Of a stretch of DNA of 64,000 nucleotides, positions 5,874 through 37,538 are shown one piece after another. The first letter of the stretch is position 1. Each line of letters starts with the position of its first letter. A program made the translations under genes and the position numbers. This DNA comes from Comamonadaceae bacterium (GTDB lineage: Bacteria; Pseudomonadota; Gammaproteobacteria; Burkholderiales; Burkholderiaceae_C): the NCBI GenBank assembly GCA_027490925.1, contig JAIXXF010000001.1, positions 62,001 through 126,000 on the forward strand, in the 5' to 3' direction. Under the pieces are notes generated by a model. The model had not been told where the DNA came from. It searched no databases and saw only the letters and a program-made list of their open reading frames with translations.

Positions 5874-7310
5874 ATGCTGTCGCGCCACACCCAACCCATT
5901 GCCGCCATCGCCACCGCCCCTGGGCGCGGCGCCGTCGGCATTGTCCGGGTGTCTGGGCGCGGTTTAGCCAGCCTGGTGCGTGCGCTGTGCGGCCAGGCGT
6001 TGGTGCCGAGAAAAGCCACTTATCTGCCGTTGTGCGACGCCGAGGGCCAAGCCATCGACCATGGTTTGGCGATCTATTTCCCCGCGCCCCATTCCTACAC
6101 CGGAGAAGACGTGCTGGAGCTGCAAGCGCACGGGGGGCCAGTGTTGCTCCAGCTTTTGCTGGCCCGCTGCCTGGAAGCCGCGGCGGCGCCCGACCCCGCC
6201 ACCGGTGCCCCGGTGTTGGCCGATTTGCGGCTCGCTGACCCGGGTGAATTCACGCAGCGGGCATTTTTGAACAACAAAATGGATTTGGCCCAAGCAGAGG
6301 CCGTGGCCGACCTGATCGACGCCAGCACCGAGGCCGCGGCCCGCAGCGCCAGCCGTTCTCTGTCAGGCGCTTTTTCTCACGAGGTGAACGCCCTGTTGGA
6401 GAAGCTGGTCCACCTGCGGATGCTGGTGGAGGCAACGCTGGACTTTCCGGAAGAGGACATCGATTTCCTGCAACGTGCCGACGCCATCGGCCAGCTCTCG
6501 CGGCTGCGCCAACAGCTGGCCACGGTCCAACAACGCACCCGGCAGGGCGCCTTGTTGCGCGAGGGCATCACCGTGGTGATCGCCGGGCAACCCAACGCGG
6601 GCAAAAGCTCACTGTTGAACGCGCTGGCGGGTGCGGAGTTGGCCATCGTCACCCCGATCGCGGGCACCACCCGTGACAAGCTCACGCAAACCATACAGAT
6701 TGAAGGCGTCCCCCTGCATGTGGTGGACACGGCAGGCTTGCGGCACCATGCCGACGCGACCGATGCGGTGGAACAAATCGGCATCGAGCGCGCGTGGGAC
6801 GCCATTGAACGCGCCGACGCGGTGTTGTTCTTGCACGATCTGACCCGAGCCAACGCTCCTGAATACATAGCAGCTGACCTAGAAATCGCGAGGGCTTTGT
6901 CCGGAAAATTGTCTGAACACGTGCCTGTGATCGAGATTTGGAACAAATCCGACGCTGCGGCCGCAACCGACGCCTCTGAGCTGAACACACGTGAGGCGAC
7001 CGGTCTACGGCTGTCGGCCAAAACCGGCGCGGGTCTGGCGGCGCTCCGCCAGCGGCTGCTGCAGGTGGCGGGATGGCAGTCGGCCAGCGAGGGGCTGTAC
7101 CTGGCGCGCACGCGGCATGTGTCGGCCTTGCGGCAGGTCGGCCAGCATTTGGACACTGCCGACCGGGTGTTGACCGCGGCCTCCCCAGCGCTTGACCTGC
7201 TGGCGGAAGAGCTGCGCCTCGCCCAGAACGCGCTGAACCAGATCACCGGGCATTTCGATGCCGACGACCTGTTGGGTGAAATCTTCTCGCGCTTTTGCAT
7301 CGGCAAGTGA
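5874..7310 (+). CDS. mnmE: tRNA uridine-5-carboxymethylaminomethyl GTPase MnmE
   Basis: With MnmG it modifies the wobble uridine of several tRNAs. The 478 residues start at ATG 5874, with GGAAGA upstream; an in-frame ATG at 5859 is less likely because it abuts the terminator. It has the N-terminal tetrahydrofolate-binding domain, P-loop GQPNAGKSS (238-246), switch DTAGLR (285-290), NKSD (357-360) and the C-terminal catalytic CIGK. Residues about 327-346, between DLTR and NKSD, are translated from a copy of the dispersed repeat at 6854-6911. This in-frame insertion enlarges the loop before the G4 motif. The rest of the domain is intact, so the protein is probably active. Confidence 0.97.
6854..6911 (+). 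repeat. Dispersed GCTAT/ATAGC repeat, copy inside mnmE
   Basis: Head CGCT...ATAGC at 6854-6871, then the tail with CGAGGGCTTTGTCCGG near 6888-6904. It aligns with the copy at 26009 (ATAGCA...CGAGGGCT.TG.CCGG). It is read in frame without stops and adds about 20 residues to MnmE. Base composition is visibly more AT-rich than the flanking gene. Confidence 0.7.
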
Positions 7311-12184: not shown

Positions 12185-12849
12185 CGGCACCGGTTGCCTC
12201 CGCTTCGCCAACAGGCTTTCCGCGCCTCGCCGCTGCCCGCCCGCCGCGCAGCCTGTGGCAGCGCTTATGGGAGTCGGTGTCGATTTATCTGCCAGTGCTG
12301 TTGATGGGTTTGCTCGCCATGGGCACCTATTGGCTGGTCAAAAACACCCCCTTGCTCGAGGCGCCGGAGCCGCAACGCCCGCTGAGCCACGACCCCGACT
12401 ACACCATGAGCCGCTTTGCGGTGCGCAGTTTTGACCCTGCAGGCCGTCTCAAGACCGAGCTGTTTGGCCAAGAGGGGCGCCATTACCCCGACACCGACAC
12501 GCTGGAGATCGACCAAGTCCGCATGCGCAGCTTCAGCCCACAAGGCCAGCTCACCACCGCCAATGCCGCGCGTGCGGTGAGCAACGGCGATGGCTCCGAA
12601 GTGCAACTCTTCGGCAACGCCGTCGTGGTCCGTGAGGCAGGCGTGAAGGGTTCCCCGCCGACCCGGTTTGAAGGTGAGTTTCTGCACGCGTTCGTGGCGA
12701 CCGAGCGGCTGGTCTCCAGCAAGCCGGTCACGCTCACCCGCGGGGCCGACCGTTTCACCGCCGACAGTCTGCAGTACGACCACACCGAGCGCGTGGCCGA
12801 ACTGCAAGGTCGGGTGCGTGGTGTCTTGACGCCTGGAGGAGCCCGGTGA
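12181..12849 (+). CDS. lptC: LPS export ABC transporter periplasmic protein LptC
   Basis: Bitopic inner-membrane protein that receives LPS from LptBFG and passes it to LptA. The 222 residues have a proline/arginine-rich N-terminus, one transmembrane helix (about 35-55, VSIYLPVLLMGLLAMGTYWL), then a beta-jellyroll periplasmic domain. The start overlaps the kdsC stop and the stop overlaps the next start (GTGA). The usual partners lptA and lptB do not follow; a dehydrogenase occupies that place. Confidence 0.92.
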   Translation: MTAPVASASPTGFPRLAAARPPRSLWQRLWESVSIYLPVLLMGLLAMGTYWLVKNTPLLEAPEPQRPLSHDPDYTMSRFAVRSFDPAGRLKTELFGQEGRHYPDTDTLEIDQVRMRSFSPQGQLTTANAARAVSNGDGSEVQLFGNAVVVREAGVKGSPPTRFEGEFLHAFVATERLVSSKPVTLTRGADRFTADSLQYDHTERVAELQGRVRGVLTPGGAR

Positions 12850-28035: not shown

Positions 28036-28406
28036 GGCGGGGTGTTGGGTGGGTGGATGGGTGCGCGCGCGGGGCAGACCGGTGGGGGCGCAGATGCCCG
28101 CTGGACCCTGGCCTGGCCCCTCAACGCTTGGCCGGATTATTCCCGCACTCGGCCGACCCGGATGCATGGAACAAGTGGTGGAGCACACCCCAAACCAACC
28201 GCGCTGAACATTGCCTGTTGCCGCCCCAGTCCAAACCACTCTGCTTGCACCGGCCCGGTATCTGGCGTGAAGGCGCACCGGCCGCCGTGGCACGGTGTTC
28301 ATGTCCGGTTCATCGGAAATTCTGGCGACGCTCATGTTGGGTGACGGTGGTGTTCAGTTTGGGCCTTTGGAATAGAGGCTCCTTTAACCAACCACGGAGT
28401 TCAACC
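28036..28406. promoter_or_regulatory. Divergent intergenic region with phased TTCAT repeats
   Basis: This 371-bp gap has no gene. Upstream of the NTF2-like gene, TTCAT occurs at 28298 and 28309, with degenerate copies in the same 11-bp phase at 28320 (TTCTG), 28331 (CTCAT) and 28353 (TTCAG). One repeat per DNA turn is the pattern bound by OmpR/PhoB regulators. It is the same element (reverse complement TGAA) seen at the DUF4148 genes. The subtilase side shows nothing specific. Confidence 0.4.
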
Positions 28407-28973
28407 ATGAAATCACTGTCTACCCAAGTCAAATCGGCTGTTGGCATCACCCTGCTGGGCATGGCTGCTGCCGCGTCCGCCAACACCGCGGTGCTTAACA
28501 CCAACGTGACAGAAGCCGAAGTCATCCAGGCGCAAAAGGCCTGGGGCGACGCCTTGGTGAAAATCTCAAAGGACTTTGAAGACGGCGGCTTGCCCAAGGC
28601 CCGCGCCACTGCCGAGGCCGTGCTGAACGCCGCCTACGGCTACAACCTCGGTCCCGTGCTCTTCAAGCCCACCTTGACTGTTGCACCACAAACCTTCCGC
28701 ACCACCAAAGACGGTGCGCTGGCCTACTTCGTGGGTGGCAACCCCGCCTTTCCGAAAGACAACGGTTTTGCGCTGAAAGGCTGGCGCGCGGTAGAGGTGA
28801 AGAACAGCGCCATCCTGATCGATGGCGACATGGCCACCACCATGGGCAACGTGACGTTGACCGACAAGACAGGCAAGAAGACCACGGTTGACAAGACCTG
28901 GACCTTCAAGAAAGACGCCAATGGCGCACTGCGCATCGTGGTGCACCACTCGTCTCTGCCATTCAACTCCTGA
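28407..28973 (+). CDS. Exported NTF2/SnoaL-like protein
   Basis: Secreted protein of 188 residues from ATG 28407, with a CGGAG ribosome-binding site. The signal peptide is MKSLSTQVKSAVGITLLGMA, cleaved near ASA-NT. The mature part resembles small NTF2/CaMKII-association-like domains (KAWGDALVKISKDFEDGG at the start, IVVHHSSLPF at the end). Such proteins are often automatically labelled phosphoribosyl-AMP cyclohydrolase, but no catalytic motif of that enzyme is visible. It is the first gene of an exported three-gene cluster with a DUF3034 protein and a truncated haemoglobin; gaps of 80 and 32 bp suggest one transcript. Confidence 0.72.
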   Translation: MKSLSTQVKSAVGITLLGMAAAASANTAVLNTNVTEAEVIQAQKAWGDALVKISKDFEDGGLPKARATAEAVLNAAYGYNLGPVLFKPTLTVAPQTFRTTKDGALAYFVGGNPAFPKDNGFALKGWRAVEVKNSAILIDGDMATTMGNVTLTDKTGKKTTVDKTWTFKKDANGALRIVVHHSSLPFNS

Positions 28974-29053: not shown

Positions 29054-29986
29054 ATGACCAAAAAAATTCTACAAATCGCGGCCGCTGCATCGGTGGCATT
29101 GTGTGCGGCCACCGCTCAAGCGGCGACCAACAAGCTCGTGCTGACGGGCGGCGTCAGTTCGGTGGACGGTGCCGCCGGCGGCGGCATCACGCCCTGGGCG
29201 GTGATCGGCACCAACGCCACCGCCGGTGAGACAGGTTTGTCTGCCCACGTGTCTCGCGCGGTGCTGCGCGACTATTCGTTGACCACTTATGGCGCGGCTG
29301 TCGGCATCAACGAACGTGTTGAACTGTCTTTGGCGCAACAGAACTTCAACGCTGGGCCGGTGGTCGGCGTCAACGGGCTTGGTTTCGCGGTCACGCCCGG
29401 GCAAAAAATCAAGATGGACATCTACGGCCTGAAGGTTCGATTGGCCGGTGACGCCATCTTGGACAGCGACACCTGGGTGCCGCAAATCTCCGCAGGCTTG
29501 CTGCACAAACGCACCAACGCGGGCAGCATCGACCCTGTGTTGACGGCCTTGGGTGCCAAAGACAGCGGCACGGACCTGTATGTCAGTGCCACCAAGCTGT
29601 TCCTGGCGCCCGGTGTGTTGGTGAACGGCACGCTGCGCTACACCAAAGCCAACCAGAATGGCCTGCTGGGCTTTGGCGGTGCCTTGGGCGAGAACAAGGC
29701 CAGTTTGCAGCCTGAGTTCTCGGTCGCCTACTTGCTGAGCAAGAACCTGGCCGTTGGCGCGGAATACCGCTTCAAGCCCAACAACCTGGAGAAGGTGGGC
29801 AACACCCTGCCAATTCCCCGTGGCGGCTTGCGCGAAGACGACTGGATGGATTTGTTTGTCGCCTGGGCACCGTCCAAGAACCTGTCGCTGACGGCCGCTT
29901 ACCTCGACCTTGGCCGCATCGGCCCTGCCTTGGTGAATGACCGCAAGCAGCGCGGCGTGTACTTGTCTGCGCAAGTCGCTTTCTGA
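29054..29986 (+). CDS. DUF3034 outer-membrane barrel-like protein
   Basis: Protein of 310 residues with a clear signal peptide (MTKKILQIAAAASVALCAAT, cleavage after AQA). The mature sequence alternates short amphipathic beta strands with aromatic residues and ends YLSAQVAF, the C-terminal phenylalanine typical of outer-membrane barrels. This matches DUF3034, whose function is not established. It lies between the NTF2-like gene and the truncated haemoglobin. A role as channel or scaffold for the periplasmic haem protein is speculation from context. Confidence 0.8.
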   Translation: MTKKILQIAAAASVALCAATAQAATNKLVLTGGVSSVDGAAGGGITPWAVIGTNATAGETGLSAHVSRAVLRDYSLTTYGAAVGINERVELSLAQQNFNAGPVVGVNGLGFAVTPGQKIKMDIYGLKVRLAGDAILDSDTWVPQISAGLLHKRTNAGSIDPVLTALGAKDSGTDLYVSATKLFLAPGVLVNGTLRYTKANQNGLLGFGGALGENKASLQPEFSVAYLLSKNLAVGAEYRFKPNNLEKVGNTLPIPRGGLREDDWMDLFVAWAPSKNLSLTAAYLDLGRIGPALVNDRKQRGVYLSAQVAF

Positions 29987-30018: not shown

Positions 30019-30465
30019 ATGAAAAAACTGACGCTGTCGGGCTTGTTGCTCGCTTCTGTGGTGTGGAGCGGGGCCGCCTGGTCTGCGCCCACCATGCCGC
30101 CCGCCGATCCCTCGGTCTACAAGGCGTTCGGCGAGAAGCCCGGACTGGTCAAGCTGGTGAACGAATTCGCTGGCGCGCTGGTGGCCGATCCCCGGACACG
30201 CGACTTCTTCGTCAACGCCAACGCCGAACGCCTGACCACGCAACTGGTCGACCAGTTCTGCGAAGTCACCGGTGGCCCCTGCAAATACCAGGGCTTGGAC
30301 ATGAAATCGTCCCATGCCCGATTCAAGATCAACAAAGGCCACTATAACGCCTTGGTTGAGGCTCTGCAGACGGCCATGGACAAGCAAAACGTGCCTTTCT
30401 CCGCCCAGCGCGAGTTGCTGGCCCAGCTGGCATTCATGTACCGGGACATCATCACGGACAAATGA
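30019..30465 (+). CDS. Periplasmic group 1 truncated haemoglobin
   Basis: Small haem protein of 148 residues with an N-terminal Sec signal peptide (MKKLTLSGLLLASVVWSGAA, cleaved near WSA), unusual for this mostly cytoplasmic family. The truncated-globin core shows DPRTRDFF in the B/C region, CEVTGGPCKYQG before the E/F region, and MKSSH with His99 as proximal haem ligand, followed by INKGHYNALV. Two cysteines (81, 88) could form a disulfide in the periplasm. It probably binds O2 or NO, or takes part in electron transfer. A strong terminator follows. Confidence 0.85.
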   Translation: MKKLTLSGLLLASVVWSGAAWSAPTMPPADPSVYKAFGEKPGLVKLVNEFAGALVADPRTRDFFVNANAERLTTQLVDQFCEVTGGPCKYQGLDMKSSHARFKINKGHYNALVEALQTAMDKQNVPFSAQRELLAQLAFMYRDIITDK

Positions 30466-30670: not shown

Positions 30671-31087
30671 TCAGATCAACGACGCGGCTTTCTTGACCCA
30701 AGCCACCACCGTTTCTTGCACCTGTTTGATGGTCTTGGCCACGTCCGGTGCTTTCACCGGCGCTGTGGCGACTTGGGTGGCCGGCGGGTAGTTCACGTCG
30801 CTGAAGTACACCTCGCCCTGGGCCGTGGCCAGCGCCAACTCCTGCTTGACCTGCTCTCGGGTTTTGGTCGATTTGAACTCGGGCCATTTGGGGTAGTCGA
30901 CGTCGCTGATGTGAACCTCGCCCTTGGCCAAAGCCACGGCCAGCTCGGCCTTCACCTGCTCGCGTGTCAGACCCTTGTCTGCCGCCAATGCAGGCGCGCC
31001 CAGGCACAGGGCGGATGCGCCCGCCGTCGCGGCAGCCAACCGTTTCATGGTTCGAAGTGCTGACGAGGATGTCGATGTGGATGTCAT
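30671..31087 (-). CDS. DUF4148 domain-containing exported protein 1
   Basis: Small exported protein of 138 residues; start ATG 31087 has AAGGAG 11 bp upstream, with ATG 31048 (MKRLAAATAG) the alternative. The signal peptide ends near ALAA. The mature part has two tandem DUF4148 units, LTREQVKAELAVALAKGEV...DYP and KTREQVKQELALATAQGEV...NYPP, then a helical tail. DUF4148 function is unknown. It is one of three related genes here, each monocistronic with its own terminator, and it has 11-bp-phased TGAA repeats upstream. Confidence 0.88.
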   Translation of the reverse strand: MTSTSTSSSALRTMKRLAAATAGASALCLGAPALAADKGLTREQVKAELAVALAKGEVHISDVDYPKWPEFKSTKTREQVKQELALATAQGEVYFSDVNYPPATQVATAPVKAPDVAKTIKQVQETVVAWVKKAASLI

Positions 31088-31156: not shown

Positions 31157-31216
31157 ATGAACCTGTCCGCTGAAAACCGTGACAGGTCGCTGAAAGCAGG
31201 GTGAATGCTGGATGAA
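31157..31216. promoter_or_regulatory. Phased TGAA array upstream of DUF4148 gene 1
   Basis: ATGAA 31157, CTGAA 31190, GTGAA 31201 and ATGAA 31212: spacings 33, 11 and 11 bp, all multiples of 11. One more CTGAA at 31170 is out of phase. The pattern matches the arrays at 31998 and 34092 and suggests a common direct-repeat-binding regulator. Confidence 0.5.
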
Positions 31217-31303: not shown

Positions 31304-31912
31304 TCAGTTGTCGCTACTGGTCGTCTCAATGCTGTCGGCCGCGTTGGCCGTTTCCACTGGGCTGCCCACAGGCGCGGTGGCGCTCGCTGCCCCCAGTGGC
31401 GCGCCAATGGGGGTGGTGTCCACCACTGCCGTAGCGACCGCCGGCACGGCTGGCGGAACCACTGCCACAGCCGGGGCGGCGGAGCGTTTGTTGGCCAGCT
31501 GCGTACCAAACAAAGTGTTGCGGTGGTCGGGGTAGTACACCTCGTCAATCTGCAGCGTGCCGTTGCGCTTGGCTTCCATCATTTCCGCCACCACCTCGGC
31601 TCGCGAGCGGCCTGGGCCAGTGCTGACAGGCGTCGGTGGGTAATCGATTTCGTCGACCAGAATGTCTCCGCGCGCCACCGCTTGCCGCACTTCATTGCGC
31701 ACCTGCTCGCGCGACTTGGACGACTTGAACACCGGTGTGGGTGGGTAGTCCACATCGTTGAAATACACCTGGCCGCGTGCCAACGCCTCTTTCAGTTCGG
31801 CCTTGACCTGGGCGCGCGTTTTGCTGCCATCGTTGGCTTGAGCGGTGACGGCGCCAAAGCCCATCAGCAGGCCAGTGAGCACCACGGTGAGCTTCAACTT
31901 GGAACGTTTCAT
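31304..31912 (-). CDS. DUF4148 domain-containing exported protein 2
   Basis: Exported protein of 202 residues from ATG 31912 (MKRSKLKLTVVLTGLLMG), with AAGGAG upstream and a signal peptide ending near TAQA. Three tandem units: KTRAQVKAELKEALARG...DYPPTPV, KSREQVRNEVRQAVARG...DYPPTPV, and the more divergent RSRAEVVAEMMEAKRNG...YYPD. The remainder is a low-complexity Ala/Pro/Val/Thr tail with no cysteine. The periplasmic role is unknown. It is divergent from a porin gene, and its upstream region is duplicated in front of DUF4148 gene 3. Confidence 0.88.
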   Translation of the reverse strand: MKRSKLKLTVVLTGLLMGFGAVTAQANDGSKTRAQVKAELKEALARGQVYFNDVDYPPTPVFKSSKSREQVRNEVRQAVARGDILVDEIDYPPTPVSTGPGRSRAEVVAEMMEAKRNGTLQIDEVYYPDHRNTLFGTQLANKRSAAPAVAVVPPAVPAVATAVVDTTPIGAPLGAASATAPVGSPVETANAADSIETTSSDN

Positions 31913-31946: not shown

Positions 31947-32057
31947 CTTTCACGGAACTGTGAAGTTGCAACGTGGAAACGAGTGTGATGACCCCCCATG
32001 AACCGGTGTCGTGGTTCCTGTGAACGGCGGTTTATTTCTCTATGAATCGCAAATGAA
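31947..32057. promoter_or_regulatory. Shared promoter block and TGAA array, copy A
   Basis: Aligns without gaps to 34041-34151. Identical blocks are CTTTCA, TGAAGTTGCAACGTG and GAGTGTG, in the same register. They are followed by ATGAA 31998, GTGAA 32020, ATGAA 32042 and ATGAA 32053 (spacing 22, 22, 11). The first repeat is 86 bp from the DUF4148 gene 2 start codon. The array could also act on the porin to the right. This 317-bp gap has no gene. Confidence 0.7.
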
Positions 32058-32229
32058 CAAATGGGTGTTCGCTGCCACCTCATCCACCGGCTTTGGTGGG
32101 CCTGTGTCGGAAAAATTAATCTGAAGGTCACCCGTCCTTCACAGGGGAAAGCGAGATTAAAGGGTCCGTTTCACCCCGTTCACCCAGCCCGCGCGGGCTG
32201 GTCTTGAACAACAACACATGGAGTACCCA

Positions 32230-33444
32230 ATGAAGCAATTCGCGGTCACGGCGGTGGCCCTCACCGCCGCGGGATTTGCCCACGCACAGTCCAGCGTGGC
32301 GATCTACGGCGTCGTGGACAACAGCTATTCAGTCAATACAGGTTCGGTGGCCGATGTCTCTGGACTGGCCTGGGGCAATCTCAGTGCCAGCCGCTTGGGC
32401 GTTCGTGGCGTCGAAGATCTGGGCGATGGCCTGAAGGCCCATTTCAATTTCGAAGCGGGCATCGGAACCGAGTCGGGCGCTGGCGTCGACGGGCCCAGCC
32501 TGGACAACGTTGGCCCTGCTGTGGGCGCTGGTGGGCTGACCTTTGCCCGGCGTGCCACAGTTGGTCTGTCTGGGTCGCTGGGTGAAGTGAGGTTCGGGCG
32601 TGACTTTGTGCCCGCTTTCTACAACGAGGCCCAGTTCGCACCGCTCGGCCGCAACGGCGCGGGGTCCAGCATCATCACGCAAGTGAATGTGGTGGGGGTG
32701 ACCCGCTCCCGCACATCCAATGGCATCAAGTACCTGTTGCCCAAACTGGGTGGCTGGTACGGTGAAGCCATGCTGGCTTTCGGTGAACAACCCAGCAACG
32801 CCGGGACGCCCGAGGGCTCGACGAACGACAGCGGCGACTACCTCGGCGCACGCCTGGGCTATGCCGCAGGTCCGTTTGACATTGCTGCCGCCTTTGGAAA
32901 AACCCGCGGCACGAGAAGCGTGGCTTCTCCGGTGACTGCCGCTTCGGCCGACAACGACCGGATGGTGCATAACCTGGGGGCGACCTATGCGATCGGCCCA
33001 GTGAAGTTGTTTGGCCTTTACTCGCTACAGACCCAAGAGAACACGGTGGGTTCGGCAGCGAGTGGCCTGAATTTGGCCGGGCTGGTGGCCAGCGCGGGCA
33101 ACGATCTGGAGGCCAAAGCGCTGTCGCTCGGGGCGACGTGGCAGTCGGGTCGGCACGAGTACAAGATCGGTTACAGCACCTTGAAGCTGGAGAACGGGCA
33201 AGGCGTGGGCACTGCACCCGCAGCCGACAAGTGGGCCGTCGGTTACCAATACAACCTGTCTCGGCGCACGGCGCTGTACGCCACTTATGCCACGCTCAAG
33301 AACAAGGACGCGACCCAAGCCGCCGGTCCCAACGCCGGCCTGACCGCCGGTGCCAACCGCCAGCGCGGTTTGGCGGGCACAGCCCTCACAGGCCCGTTGG
33401 CCTCGTCCACCGCGGTGGACTTGGGCATCCGGCACAGTTTTTGA
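32230..33444 (+). CDS. Gram-negative porin
   Basis: General-diffusion type trimeric porin, 404 residues from ATG 32230, with GGAG upstream; the in-frame ATG 32218 is less likely. The signal peptide MKQFAVTAVALTAAGFAHAQ is followed by SSVAIYGVVDNSYSV, the typical Burkholderiales porin start. Other marks are SRLGVRGVEDLGDGLKA, the loop-3 region FGRDFVPAFYN, and the final strand VDLGIRHSF ending in Phe. Substrate selectivity cannot be read. It is divergent from DUF4148 gene 2 across the phased array, so it may share the same regulator, and it ends at a bidirectional terminator. Confidence 0.93.
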   Translation: MKQFAVTAVALTAAGFAHAQSSVAIYGVVDNSYSVNTGSVADVSGLAWGNLSASRLGVRGVEDLGDGLKAHFNFEAGIGTESGAGVDGPSLDNVGPAVGAGGLTFARRATVGLSGSLGEVRFGRDFVPAFYNEAQFAPLGRNGAGSSIITQVNVVGVTRSRTSNGIKYLLPKLGGWYGEAMLAFGEQPSNAGTPEGSTNDSGDYLGARLGYAAGPFDIAAAFGKTRGTRSVASPVTAASADNDRMVHNLGATYAIGPVKLFGLYSLQTQENTVGSAASGLNLAGLVASAGNDLEAKALSLGATWQSGRHEYKIGYSTLKLENGQGVGTAPAADKWAVGYQYNLSRRTALYATYATLKNKDATQAAGPNAGLTAGANRQRGLAGTALTGPLASSTAVDLGIRHSF

Positions 33445-33462
33445 AGGCAGTGCGTACCCCAT

Positions 33463-33500
33463 AAAAAACCCCTCCCGGCTTGCGCTGGGAGGGTTTGTTG
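33463..33500. terminator. Bidirectional terminator between porin and DUF4148 gene 3
   Basis: CCCTCCC (33470-33476) and GGGAGGG (33487-33493) around a 10-nt loop, flanked by A6 on the left and TTTGTT on the right. It serves the leftward DUF4148 gene better than the porin. Confidence 0.82.
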
Positions 33501-33517
33501 TGGGGTGATCGCGTTGA

Positions 33518-34006
33518 TCAGTTCTGCGTGGTACTGGGTAACACCGCCGAGCTGGCGTTCGCGGTGTCCACCTTCGACTTGGATTTTGCGGTCACGATGT
33601 TGGGACGCACATCCCGGTTGTCGGGGTACTGAACCTCGTTGATGTACAGGCTGCCATTGCGCTTGGCAGTCATCATCTCCGCCACCACCTCAGCACGTGA
33701 GCGGCTGGGTCCCGAGGCCACCGGGGTCGGTGGGTAATCGACCTCGCTCACCAGCGTGTCACCAGCCGCAGTCGCTTGACGCACTTCGGCCCGTGCCTGT
33801 TCGCGTGACTTGATCGACTTCAAGACCGGCATGGGAGGGTAATCCACCTCGCTGACGAGAACTTCCCCGCGTGCCAGCGCCTGCCGCAATTCCGCCTTGA
33901 CTTGCTCACGGGTTTTGCCGATATCACTGGCCTGGGCGCTGGCCGCACCCAAACCCACCAATACACCTGCCATCACCAGGCCGAGAGAGAACTTGCCACT
34001 TGTCAT
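33518..34006 (-). CDS. DUF4148 domain-containing exported protein 3
   Basis: Exported protein of 162 residues from ATG 34006 (MTSGKFSLGLVMAGVLVGLG), with AAAGGAG upstream. It has three tandem units as in protein 2: KTREQVKAELRQALARG...DYPP, KSREQARAEVRQATAAG...DYPPTPV and RSRAEVVAEMMTAKRNG...QYPD, then a short Ser/Lys/Thr tail. The close match to protein 2 in both coding and promoter sequence indicates a local duplication. It is divergent from a sensor-kinase operon. Confidence 0.88.
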   Translation of the reverse strand: MTSGKFSLGLVMAGVLVGLGAASAQASDIGKTREQVKAELRQALARGEVLVSEVDYPPMPVLKSIKSREQARAEVRQATAAGDTLVSEVDYPPTPVASGPSRSRAEVVAEMMTAKRNGSLYINEVQYPDNRDVRPNIVTAKSKSKVDTANASSAVLPSTTQN

Positions 34007-34040
34007 CACAGACTCCTTTACATGTTGGATGAACCAGCTG

Positions 34041-34151
34041 CTTTCATGAACTTATGAAGTTGCAACGTGAGAGGGAGTGTGCAGAGGCGGCATGAATACC
34101 CGCGTGCAAGCGAATGAAGCCAAGGTGTTGGTTGTGTGAACCGAAAATGAA
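34041..34151. promoter_or_regulatory. Shared promoter block and TGAA array, copy B
   Basis: Gap-free match to 31947-32057. Repeats ATGAA 34092, ATGAA 34114, GTGAA 34136 and ATGAA 34147 again have spacings 22, 22 and 11. The first is again 86 bp from the DUF4148 start codon. An extra ATGAA at 34153 is out of phase. The array also lies about 95 bp upstream of the kinase start, so the kinase/regulator operon could autoregulate here. Confidence 0.7.
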
Positions 34152-34242
34152 AATGAAGCGGGTCATCCCCTGTTCATGGATTGTTAACTTGGAAACCACG
34201 GTGCACGCAGCAATATGGATATGCCAAGCCACACAATGCACC

Positions 34243-35847
34243 ATGTTCAGAAAACGCCTTCAGTACGCGCTCTACTTGCTGGCCATCGCCGTCACCGCGC
34301 AGGGCACCATCTCCTGGTGGGCGCTCGACGTGGCAACTACCCAGGTGATGCGCGGCCGGGTCGCCAGCGATCTGCAGATCAACTTCGAAAAGCTCTCGGA
34401 GACCAAACAGCGGCTCAAGACTTGGGCGTCCCAAGCGGTCACGGGCCTGGCCAACGACCCGCAGACCAAAGACCGGTATCTGGACGACATGGGGCTGTTG
34501 CTGGCCCGGTTGAAAGAGCTGGATGCCAAGTGGAAACGCGTGTCCAACGAGTCGCCGTCAGACATACCAGCCGACATGCTGGCCCGATCCGAAGCGCTGA
34601 CCCTGCTCGAGTCCAGCTTGAGCACGCTGCGCACTGAAATGTCGAATCTGTTGCCCGCCGTTCCTGGCCAAGATGTCCAGGTGTCATGGCGCCGATTGGC
34701 GAACGCTTTTGACTTGTCGGAAGGTCGGGATCTCCGCACGGTGCTGTCTCAGAGCATCGCCAGGGAGGAGCTTGCCGTGGTGAGAGAAAGGACCGCCGCA
34801 GACGATTCTCTGGCGCTGGTGCGCGGCCTCGCCTTGGGCGCCACGCTGACGTTGGGGCTGGCTGCCTGCCTGTTCGCGCTTTATTTTTCCAACGCATTGC
34901 GGCGCCCGTTGGACGAGCTGCAAGCCGGTACCGAGGCGCTGCAAAAGGGCGATCTCAGCTACCAGATACCCGTGCTCCGGCGCGACGAATTCGGCAAGAT
35001 CGCCATGACGCTGAACGAGCTGGCGACGGAGCTGGCGCGCCACGAAAAACGCGAGGGCGAGGTGCGGCAGCAACTGCAAGACCAAGTGCTGGCCCGTACC
35101 AATGAACTGCAAAACGCACTGCACAAGCTGCAGTTGATGGACGCGCGCCGCCGACAGCTGTTTGCCGACATCAGCCACGAACTCCGCACCCCCACAACGG
35201 CCATTCGTGGCGAGGCCGAAGTCACCCTGCGTGGCAAAGACAAGCCGGTGGAAGAGTACAAAGCCACGTTGGTGCGCATCACGGAAATTTCGCAGCATTT
35301 GGGTTCGGTGATCAAAGACTTGCTGGACCTCGCGCGCAACGACATCGAGGCGCTTTCCATTCAGCATGAAGCGGTGGACGTTCAAGAGGTGTTGCGGGAA
35401 GCGGTGGCGCAGGTCCAAGCGCCCGCTAGCCAACGCCAGATCACGGTGCAGACCGAATTGTTGGCGGAACAGCCCAAAGTCAGCGGCGACCCGCAGCGTC
35501 TGCGCCAGCTGTTCACGCTGGTGCTGGACAACGCGGTCCAGTATTCAAACGTCGGTGGCCGCGTCGTGGTCTCGACCCGCAAACACACCAACAGCGAGGG
35601 GTATGGCGTCTGGCAACTAGAAGTGCAAGACGAGGGCGTTGGCATCGAGCCGCACGAACTGCCGCGCGTGTTTGAGCGCAAGTTCAGGGGCGAACGGGCC
35701 AAGGCACAGCGGGAAGACGGCTCCGGTCTGGGATTGAACATCGCCCAGACACTGGCGCGGGCGCACGACGGTACCATTTTGCTGAAGAGCCAAGTCGGCC
35801 AAGGCACCCAAGTGACGATTGATTTACCAACGATGGAAGCGGCATGA
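34243..35847 (+). CDS. Sensor histidine kinase of the DUF4148/porin locus
   Basis: Membrane sensor kinase of 534 residues from ATG 34243 (MFRKRLQYALYLLAIAV). Helix 1 is at about 7-27, followed by a mostly helical periplasmic domain of about 160 residues and helix 2 at about 192-216. A HAMP domain follows (RRPLDELQAGTEALQKGDLS). The H-box FADISHELRTPTTAIRGE has His312, the N-box is VLDNAVQYSN, and G boxes DEGVGIE and GSGLGLNIA are present. The periplasmic sensor matches no family I recognise. It overlaps the regulator gene by ATGA and starts 236 bp from DUF4148 gene 3, sharing the phased array. Confidence 0.92.
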   Translation: MFRKRLQYALYLLAIAVTAQGTISWWALDVATTQVMRGRVASDLQINFEKLSETKQRLKTWASQAVTGLANDPQTKDRYLDDMGLLLARLKELDAKWKRVSNESPSDIPADMLARSEALTLLESSLSTLRTEMSNLLPAVPGQDVQVSWRRLANAFDLSEGRDLRTVLSQSIAREELAVVRERTAADDSLALVRGLALGATLTLGLAACLFALYFSNALRRPLDELQAGTEALQKGDLSYQIPVLRRDEFGKIAMTLNELATELARHEKREGEVRQQLQDQVLARTNELQNALHKLQLMDARRRQLFADISHELRTPTTAIRGEAEVTLRGKDKPVEEYKATLVRITEISQHLGSVIKDLLDLARNDIEALSIQHEAVDVQEVLREAVAQVQAPASQRQITVQTELLAEQPKVSGDPQRLRQLFTLVLDNAVQYSNVGGRVVVSTRKHTNSEGYGVWQLEVQDEGVGIEPHELPRVFERKFRGERAKAQREDGSGLGLNIAQTLARAHDGTILLKSQVGQGTQVTIDLPTMEAA

Positions 35848-36572
35848 AGGTACTGATAGTTGAAGACGACCAGCGGGTCGCTGATTTTCTGGAGCGAGGG
35901 CTGCGCGCAGAGGGCTACACCGTGGAGCTGGCCCGCAACGGCACCGAAGGCCTCGCTGCAGCGAAAGACCTGTGGAAGAGCGCACGCGAAGACCATACGC
36001 GGGCCATCGTCATCCTTGATCTGATGCTGCCCGGCATGCCGGGCTTGGAGGTCTGCCAAAGCCTGCGCGCCAGTGGCTGTGCCCTGCCGATATTGATTTT
36101 GACGGCCATGGGCGCCCTGGAAGACCGGGTGAACGGCTTGCGCCTCGGCGCGGACGACTATCTGACCAAACCCTTTGCGTTCGACGAATTGCTCGCGCGC
36201 CTAGAGGCCTTGGCGCGGCGGTCGCAAGACATCACCTCGAACCAACCGCAAGAACTTCGGTTTGGCGACCTTGTCTTGGACCGGCAGTCAATGCGTGTGA
36301 CGCGCGCCGGGCGACCCATCTCGCTCACCGCCAAAGAGCTGGCGCTGCTGGAACTGCTGATGTCGTCCCCTGGCCGTCTGCACAGCCGCGAGCGCATCCT
36401 GGCCAACGTCTGGGGCACTTACGAAGACCCGCTCACCAACGTGGTGGATGTGTACATTCGTCGGCTGCGCAAGAAAATTGACGAAGAATTCGCCTACCCG
36501 ATGATCCACACCCAACGCGGTCTTGGCTACCGCCTGGAAATGCCGTCACAACCCCATAACAACACCCCTTGA
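35844..36572 (+). CDS. OmpR-family response regulator of the DUF4148/porin locus
   Basis: Response regulator of 242 residues. The receiver has EDD at 7-9, phosphoacceptor Asp59 (VILDLMLPGMPG) and Lys in YLTKPF. The OmpR/PhoB winged helix covers the last 100 residues (LTAKELALLELLMSSPGRL, VVDVYIRRLRKKID, TQRGLGYRLEM). It overlaps the kinase gene and is followed 3 bp later by a TerC-family gene. OmpR-type proteins bind direct repeats about one turn apart, so the phased TGAA arrays nearby are its best candidate targets (inference). Confidence 0.93.
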   Translation: MKVLIVEDDQRVADFLERGLRAEGYTVELARNGTEGLAAAKDLWKSAREDHTRAIVILDLMLPGMPGLEVCQSLRASGCALPILILTAMGALEDRVNGLRLGADDYLTKPFAFDELLARLEALARRSQDITSNQPQELRFGDLVLDRQSMRVTRAGRPISLTAKELALLELLMSSPGRLHSRERILANVWGTYEDPLTNVVDVYIRRLRKKIDEEFAYPMIHTQRGLGYRLEMPSQPHNNTP

Positions 36573-36575
36573 GTC

Positions 36576-37538
36576 ATGTTCACCCACACCCCCGACTGGT
36601 TGCTCTACACCTTCGTCGCGATCGTTCTGTTCGCGCTGTTCGTTGACTTTGTCTTGCTCAAAAAACAAGGCGCCCACGACGTGGGCGTCAAAGAGGCGCT
36701 GAACTGGTCGCTGGTGTGGATCGCCATCAGTTTGGCGTTCAACGCCCTGCTGTGGTGGGCCGTGCGCGACGCCAGCGGTTCGTCCGAGCTCGCGACCCAG
36801 AAGGCGCTGGAGTTCCTGACCGGCTACTTGATCGAGAAGAGCCTGGCGGTGGACAACGTGTTCGTCTTCCTGATCATCTTCAGCTACTTTGCCGTGCCCA
36901 GTGCCTACCAAAAGCGGGTGCTGATGATCGGCATCATCGGCGCCATTGTGCTGCGCACGGTCATGATCTTGATTGGTGCGTGGCTGCTCGCCAAGTTCCA
37001 CTGGATCTTGTATGTCTTCGGCGCGTTCCTGATCGTCACCGGCGTCAAGATGTGGTGGGCCGCCGGACAAGAACCCAACCTGGACGACAACCCCGCGCTG
37101 CGCTGGTTGCGCAAGTTGCTGCCAGTCAGCAAGGACTACGACGGCGAGCGCTTTTTCACCATCGAGAACGGCAAGAAGATCGCCACCCCGTTGGTCATGG
37201 TGATCTGCCTGATCGGCATCACCGACGTCATTTTTGCAGTGGACTCCATCCCCGCAATTTTTGCCATCACCAGCGACCCGTTCATCGTGTTGACCAGCAA
37301 CGTGTTCGCCATCCTGGGCCTGCGCGCGATGTTCTTTTTGCTGCAAGCCACCGCCAAGAGCTTCCACCTGTTGAACTACGGTCTGGCGGTGATCTTGGCT
37401 TTCATCGGCACCAAGATGCTGCTGATCGATATCTACAAGATCCCGGTGTTGGTGTCGCTCAGCGTGGTGATCGGCATCCTGGTGTTGACCATGGTGCTGA
37501 GCAAGAAATTTCCGCCCAAGGAACAAGCGGCGCACTGA
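36576..37538 (+). CDS. TerC/Alx-family integral membrane protein
   Basis: Membrane protein of 320 residues with about nine hydrophobic helices. TerC marks are EKSLAVDNVFVFLIIFSYF and GITDVIFAVDSIPAIFAIT, whose buried acidic residues probably bind a metal ion. E. coli Alx of this family exports manganese and responds to alkaline pH. The gene starts 3 bp after the regulator stop, so it is the third gene of the kinase-regulator operon. No yybP-ykoY riboswitch can fit ahead of it. A strong terminator follows 85 bp downstream. Confidence 0.92.
   Translation: MFTHTPDWLLYTFVAIVLFALFVDFVLLKKQGAHDVGVKEALNWSLVWIAISLAFNALLWWAVRDASGSSELATQKALEFLTGYLIEKSLAVDNVFVFLIIFSYFAVPSAYQKRVLMIGIIGAIVLRTVMILIGAWLLAKFHWILYVFGAFLIVTGVKMWWAAGQEPNLDDNPALRWLRKLLPVSKDYDGERFFTIENGKKIATPLVMVICLIGITDVIFAVDSIPAIFAITSDPFIVLTSNVFAILGLRAMFFLLQATAKSFHLLNYGLAVILAFIGTKMLLIDIYKIPVLVSLSVVIGILVLTMVLSKKFPPKEQAAH

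Follow-up and report, generated by a model that had tools for sequence, protein, structure and literature searches.

The window analysed here is a stretch of 64,000 nucleotides from a Comamonadaceae bacterium (GenBank assembly GCA_027490925.1, contig JAIXXF010000001.1, positions 62,001 to 126,000), and plain coordinates below refer to it. It contains a gene pair encoding a sensor histidine kinase and an OmpR-family response regulator, a gene for an iota-class carbonic anhydrase (CA), and three DUF4148 genes; four promoters in one 6-kb cluster carry arrays of a short direct repeat. Based on sequence comparison, these repeats are very probably operators of the adjoining two-component system, whose regulator (35844-36572) would activate a periplasmic CA regulon. 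The features that bear on this reading are as follows.

28298..28373, plus strand: operator and promoter of the CA gene; TTCA at 28298, 28309 and 28353; motif score 40.6, the top of the window
28368-28373, plus strand: -10-like TGGAAT of the CA promoter, with AAT at +18 to +20 past the last TTCA
28407..28973, plus strand: secreted iota-class (COG4337-type, metal-independent) CA, 188 amino acids, with HHSS near its end
30671..31087, minus strand: DUF4148 gene a (PF13663, 58.9 bits); the start may be an internal ATG at 31048
31157..31216, minus strand: operator of DUF4148 gene a; TTCA starts at 31216, 31205, 31194 and 31161 (steps 11, 11, 33); score 34.6
31304..31912, minus strand: DUF4148 gene b (PF13663, 72.3 bits)
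31982..32057, minus strand: operator of DUF4148 gene b; four TTCA, steps 11, 22, 22; score 37.5
31987-31982, minus strand: -10-like CACACT of operator b, within the GAGTGTG block, at the same offset as in the CA promoters of relatives
33518..34006, minus strand: DUF4148 gene c (PF13663, 61.3 bits)
34076..34151, minus strand: operator of DUF4148 gene c; four TTCA, steps 11, 22, 22; score 32.0
34081-34076, minus strand: -10-like CACACT of operator c
34162..34187, plus strand: weak kinase-directed candidate autoregulatory site; GTCA 34162, TTCA 34173, TTAA 34184, in 11-bp steps
34243..35847, plus strand: sensor histidine kinase, 534 amino acids (periplasmic sensor, HAMP, HisKA, HATPase)
35844..36572, plus strand: OmpR-family response regulator, 242 amino acids, the proposed binder of all arrays

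On the coding strand the unit is TTCAT-N6-TTCA, a direct repeat with an 11-bp period (spacings of 22, 33 and 44 bp also occur), and TTCA reads toward its gene in all four arrays. Within the CA array, TTCT at 28320 and CTCA at 28331 fill the same 11-bp register. An earlier note on this DNA had described two duplicated promoters of about 110 bp (31947-32057 and 34041-34151, those of genes b and c). We reproduced their ungapped alignment (65 of 111 positions identical) and verified the identical blocks and the RTGAA elements at 31998/32020/32042/32053 and 34092/34114/34136/34147; the distance to the DUF4148 start, given as 86 bp, was 87 bp when counted from the final TTCA to the GTG or ATG. The 22-22-11 register of that description is present, but the underlying unit is 11 bp, and although the two duplicated promoters are real, two more (31157-31216 and 28298-28373) had been overlooked.

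In a motif scan of the window, the four arrays ranked first to fourth (40.6, 37.5, 34.6 and 32.0) and the next match scored 18.6; the best score among 200 random first-order Markov strands was 21.5. The motif model behind these scores comprised 152 elements with the window's own genome excluded, the model used below for DUF4148 loci and distant CA genes includes that genome, and both still contain one duplicate locus (L110). Across the 2.76-Mb genome, RTGAA-N6-RTGAA occurs 14 times versus 8 for the backwards control, with 4 of the 14 within C4:90298-96151, and TTCA at 0/11/33 occurs only twice, at promoters b and c (control, 0). A wider regulon in this genome was considered and rejected: outside the cluster there are 10 RTGAA-N6-RTGAA matches versus 8 for the whole-genome control, which is near background, and we therefore claim no further members. 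The kinase-directed site scores 13.2, close to the mean maximum of random strands (12.3), so it is not significant alone.

The gene at 28407-28973 is, judged from its sequence, a secreted COG4337 iota-class CA, and its product is predicted to hydrate CO2. The protein matches the iota-CA structures 7c5v (226 bits) and 7c5x (258 bits); in the alignment with 7c5v, the Thr of KPTL, the Tyr of AYF 18 residues on, and HHSS are all present. The excerpted text of PMC8132391 gives Thr106 and Tyr124 as catalytic in a COG4337 iota-CA; residue numbers were assigned to the window protein by spacing, and its signal peptide was judged by eye. Against NCBIfam model NF047901 it scores 267.6 bits, under the cut-off of 350; that cut-off was reached in 0/399 and 0/369 genomes, and thus it excludes every match in these genome samples.

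The periplasmic sensor of the kinase is predicted to form a four-helix bundle (mean predicted local distance difference test score 84, eight sequences). The best PDB match of the kinase model by Foldseek was the nitrate sensor NarQ (E 2.4e-4, 14% identity); the likeness, an all-helical periplasmic sensor, is one of fold only, and the kinase part here is of the HisKA type. Sensor residues K55, Q56, D157, D163, R165 and R174 do not vary among the eight kinases aligned (A2). The regulator contains a receiver domain (PF00072, 87.3 bits) and a winged-helix Trans_reg_C domain (PF00486, 90.3 bits). Together with the alignment of regulators, these domains support the earlier assignment to the OmpR family, and phased direct repeats accompany the gene in 34 of the 35 genera with a CA.

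Arrays at carbonic anhydrase promoters of relatives

An alignment of the kinase sensor (A2) identified the system in 49 of 399 sampled family genomes at E 1e-20, and an alignment of the regulator (A3) gave 8 matches of at least 356 bits in 399 genomes of the order, the next match being at 264 bits. The kinase alignment had no match in two other genomes of the window's genus (G001 and G002), so the system is patchy even within the genus. For further comparison we assembled 56 distinct loci: those of the 49 family genomes, five of the order (G051, G074, G288, G391 and G262), and two named records, Limnobacter sp. CACIAM 66H1 (L064) and a Lysobacteraceae metagenome-assembled genome (L065). Pelomonas sp. 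BJYL3 (L110) represents the same locus as L238 (G544) and was removed from the counts, and two distant beta-CA matches (L217 and L224) were excluded before counting.

A CA gene lies within the fetched stretch at 50 of the 56 loci. Relative to the kinase-regulator pair, it is divergent at 19, downstream on the same strand at 19, upstream at 6, and downstream on the other strand at 6. The enzymes belong to COG4337 (37 loci), a COG4875-like family with a CaMKII_AD domain and HHHSS (10), and the beta class (3); the three linked beta-CAs carry a secretion signal by eye. The array follows CA in all four gene arrangements and in all three enzyme families, which are unrelated, and this argues that it belongs to the CA gene and not to the place.

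The counts were taken in a region of 306 bp around and before the gene start. An exact 11-bp TTCA pair is present in 43 of 50 CA promoters (30/35 genera), a pair at 11, 22 or 33 bp in 46/50, and a pair at any multiple from 11 to 55 bp in 49/50 (34/35 genera). As control spacings, single distances of 7-10 and 12-16 bp were found in 0-5 of 50 promoters, and multiples of 11 shifted by -4 to +5 gave 3, 2, 4, 1, 16, 4, 8, 9 and 3 of 50, where the value of 16 reflects a register one base longer. Same-strand TTCA distances peak accordingly (65 at 11, 38 at 22, 42 at 33 and 30 at 44), and off-register distances occur at most 7 times each except in that longer register (13 at 23, 15 at 45 and 14 at 56). 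The density of 11-bp pairs is 4.2/kb in CA promoters versus 0.02/kb in the rest of the same loci, a background rate that still counts the duplicate L110.

The promoters also show a preferred -10 distance. In 15 of 33 genera, the CA promoter of the window included, AAT stands at +18 to +20 past the final TTCA; the next-best offset, +29, is found in 5/33 and the others in at most 1, and T is present at +20 in 23/33. The -10 hexamer thus begins 15 bp past the last TTCA and 10 bp past TTCAT. In PhoB-type class II activators, the last repeat lies about 10 bp ahead of the -10 element. For promoters b and c, TTGCAAC was considered as a -35 element and found unconvincing; the preferred offset indicates CACACT instead, and in both promoters this position falls in the GAGTGTG block.

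At 13 of the 56 loci, exact 11-bp pairs are directed at the kinase gene and lie about 61/50/39 bp ahead of its start; L234, in which the contig ends inside the kinase gene, was not counted among these sites. The suggestion that the regulator controls its own operon gains partial support from these sites, but in the window only the weak site at 34162-34187 corresponds to it.

Six genomes have the pair without a CA gene in the fetched stretch (G655, G769, G022, G619, G771 and G074). Both COG4337 genes found elsewhere in them (G655 and G769) bear arrays, with scores of 44.9 and 38.0. One of nine beta-CA genes, the split match in G771 being counted once, also bears an array (G022, 48.2), and this gene has an evident secretion signal by eye; the other eight score at most 8.1, seven of them without an evident signal and one with an unreadable N-terminus. 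No COG4875-like CA was found in these six genomes, by a search that had no positive control.

As a converse comparison, we used 16 COG4337 genes without the pair nearby: one has a single 11-bp TTCA pair and 15 have none. L146 (no upstream DNA), L153 (no CA by tblastn), L325 (another kinase-regulator pair adjoining), and L145, L147 and L150 (system present) were dropped from these controls. At L325 (G810, a distant class member), that other kinase-regulator pair lies directly 5' of the COG4337 gene, any array there is degenerate, and its regulator is 49% identical and has the stretch DPLTNVVDVYI in common by eye.

Several observations weigh against the proposed reading. No exact 11-bp pair is present in seven of the 50 linked CA promoters; of these, L226, L232 and L233 count through a 44-bp pair alone, which can be obtained by chance, and L219 has none. 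Degenerate arrays scoring 18.7 to 40.1 precede CA at L219, L226, L232, L237 and L254, and L257 has three TTCA in 22-bp steps; at L233 nothing above 18 is directed at CA. The register one base longer (23, 45 and 56 bp) is met repeatedly, in many cases at the final element of COG4875-like promoters. The arrays of G655 and G769 were first met by pattern search, so that test was not blind. The array at the beta-CA of G022 points away from the CA gene, the array beside the kinase at L221 (G655, oriented 6449-6482) points away from the kinase gene and has no CA behind it, and no array-bearing CA was found in G619, G771 or G074. Most of the 16 control genes encode more distant CAs, and two of them (L330 and L332) are interrupted by stops. 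Control of DUF4148 genes is not conserved (see below). The regulator is proposed as the binder on the basis of co-occurrence, and other OmpR-type regulators may use similar sites. TTCA arrays with steps 11, 22, 11 and 11, 11, 11 at L335:1899-1946 (G015) and L336:2016-2052 (G511), respectively, precede genes that look by eye to be of envelope type and are divergent from another response regulator gene; related regulators may thus read the same half-site.

Other genes at the locus and alternative explanations

Four further genes adjoin those listed above.

29054..29986, plus strand: DUF3034 protein (PF11231, 314 bits); in the CA operon by position
30019..30465, plus strand: bacterial globin (PF01152, 48 bits); in the CA operon by position
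32218..33444, plus strand: porin (PF13609, 183 bits); no array found directed at it
36576..37538, plus strand: TerC/Alx membrane protein (TIGR03718, 402 bits); co-transcribed with the kinase-regulator pair by position

The CA-DUF3034-globin order is repeated in Limnobacter (L064), and relatives of the globin are present at L064 and L236. At L236 (G477, oriented 12530-12615), two divergent TTCA arrays lie near the pair, between a DUF2490 gene and a gene for a small secreted protein with an internal repeat; both are possible further members of the regulon.

All three DUF4148 proteins of the window pass the PF13663 gathering score of 27, and the proposal that their genes are targets agrees with arrays at 3/3 of them. 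In Limnobacter L064, arrays are found at two small secreted DUF4148-like genes, at a Porin_O_P gene, and at the CA of the CA-DUF3034-globin cluster; the two proteins score 24.7 and 18.0 bits, under the cut-off, and are hence called DUF4148-like. Conservation of such promoters in relatives, which the earlier note had put forward as a check, was not found: among 29 DUF4148 loci (new loci among the matches listed, from other genomes with the pair), none reaches 20 bits and four contain an 11-bp TTCA pair somewhere within 1.5 kb. We rejected DUF4148 as a conserved target on this count, and its control looks like a local extension of the CA regulon, seen in two lineages. DUF4148 genes also lie ~0.2-4 kb from other OmpR-type regulator genes (G013:C18, G013:C20, G007:C38, G411:C1 and G262:C1), which suggests that a place beside OmpR-type systems is a wider habit of these genes.

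The porin and TerC, both of which had been assigned to the regulon, were rejected as direct targets, with no array toward either among the top motif matches. The array adjoining the porin reads away from it, and a different porin has an array in Limnobacter. The TerC gene begins 3 bp past the regulator stop codon without a site of its own, and tblastn identified no TerC relative at other loci with the pair. As a whole, the envelope regulon that had been proposed was right about the regulator and the DUF4148 genes, plausible about autoregulation, and without support for TerC and the porin, and it missed the conserved target, the secreted CA.

Alternatively, a different OmpR-family regulator of the cell, CreB- or QseB-like for instance, could use the arrays, and these would lie near the present system by accident. 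The cre/blr tag TTCACN6TTCAC (PMC4689548) and the similar arrays beside another regulator in G015 and G511 speak for this; we nevertheless regard it as improbable, since arrays accompany the pair in 34 of the 35 genera with CA (30 when an exact 11-bp pair is required) and across four gene orders, 15/16 COG4337 genes without the pair nearby lack an 11-bp pair, and both distant COG4337 genes in pair-bearing genomes have arrays. CreBC/BlrAB is like the present system in its OmpR-family regulator, near-identical half-site, and 11-bp direct repeat, and in Stenotrophomonas maltophilia the tag lies ~65-80 bp before creD (PMC4689548, excerpted text). Unlike in that tag, the fifth base here is usually T and not C (72% and 5%, respectively, of 107 elements), arrays usually comprise at least three elements and not one pair, and the target is CA and not creD; the likeness is one of site and not of membership. 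The regulator scores 170.5 bits against the CreB equivalog (cut-off 273) and the kinase 126.1 bits against the CreC model (under 356), and both proteins thus fall short of these models. With PhoB and the pho box, the arrays have 11-bp direct repeats in common, but the half-site differs, and the regulator scores 189.1 bits against the PhoB equivalog, under 296.2.

That this is a metal-stress system, in which a heavy-metal regulator of CopR/AgrR type governs porins and small periplasmic proteins and CA is only a bystander, appears very improbable. The best NCBIfam model of the regulator is indeed the heavy-metal regulator TIGR01387 (CopR/CusR/CzcR), and the TerC/Alx gene comes next to it, yet its 221.9 bits fall under the cut-off of 279.2, and it is CA that is conserved as a target, whereas neither TerC nor DUF4148 is conserved next to the regulator. 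The AgrRS system of Cupriavidus metallidurans is comparable in that the targets of its OmpR-family regulator AgrR include a CopQ-like periplasmic protein, a porin of the OmpC family, and AgrR itself (PMC7380067). The AgrR box, however, is the inverted repeat ATKACANNNNTGTMAT and the system confers silver resistance; the excerpts of that article name no carbonic anhydrase (PMC7380067).

Finally, the identity of promoters b and c as a mere remnant of tandem gene duplication is already contradicted by the motif ranking in the window and by conservation across genera, and is extremely improbable. Genes b and c are paralogous, with 65% protein identity across 133 residues, and common descent therefore accounts for part of the likeness of their promoters, which extends to the proximal promoter and the ribosome-binding region. 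However, 18 of 20 positions are identical within the four RTGAA elements versus 15 of 48 in the distal spacers, which indicates that the elements and their spacing outlasted the divergence of the DNA between them; a third DUF4148 paralogue and the unrelated CA share the unit in other spacings, and the unit is conserved in other genera.

Proposed mechanism and biological meaning

With the arrays read as operators of the adjoining system, the kinase would phosphorylate the regulator (35844-36572), which would bind the TTCAT arrays directly. The position of the last element 10 bp before the -10 hexamer is that expected for class II activators of the PhoB type; the regulator would probably activate and not repress its targets. 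The core target would be the secreted CA in the sampled Burkholderiales and a few other lineages, with the kinase gene as a probable second target in some lineages. In the window, the regulon would extend to the three DUF4148 genes, and to DUF3034 and the globin by operon position.

Since CA is the target that stays constant, the simplest guess, and no more than a guess, would be a signal tied to periplasmic inorganic carbon or pH. More tentatively, and with considerable doubt, the NarQ-like four-helix sensor may itself bind bicarbonate, or else some other cue of inorganic carbon or pH, and one dedicated system would then keep whichever secreted CA a lineage has (COG4337, COG4875-like or beta) under one 11-bp operator. 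A two-component system that responds to CO2 has a precedent: signalling by PhoPR of Mycobacterium tuberculosis was reported to be CO2-dependent and to be blocked by a carbonic anhydrase inhibitor (PMC11895460). The excerpts of that report do not name CA genes as targets, and the systems are likened by description and not by sequence.

According to the excerpted texts of PMC8132391 and PMC8425729, bacterial COG4337 proteins mostly carry signal peptides, COG4337 and COG4875 rarely occur in one genome, and no regulator is named for the bacterial enzymes; here, both types and beta-CA stand behind one operator. Among the open-access papers listed by our searches, none links a two-component system to iota-CA genes. 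One and the same position behind the operator is filled by COG4337 enzymes at some loci and by COG4875 enzymes at others, as though one had been swapped for the other, which offers a handle on their rare co-occurrence, and DUF4148, a family whose Pfam name denotes unknown function, gains a regulatory context. For bacterial iota-CA, a role in pH homeostasis or metabolic needs has been suggested (PMC8132391, excerpted text); a dedicated regulator and a readable operator make the function of these enzymes testable, from the signal of the system to the function of its target.

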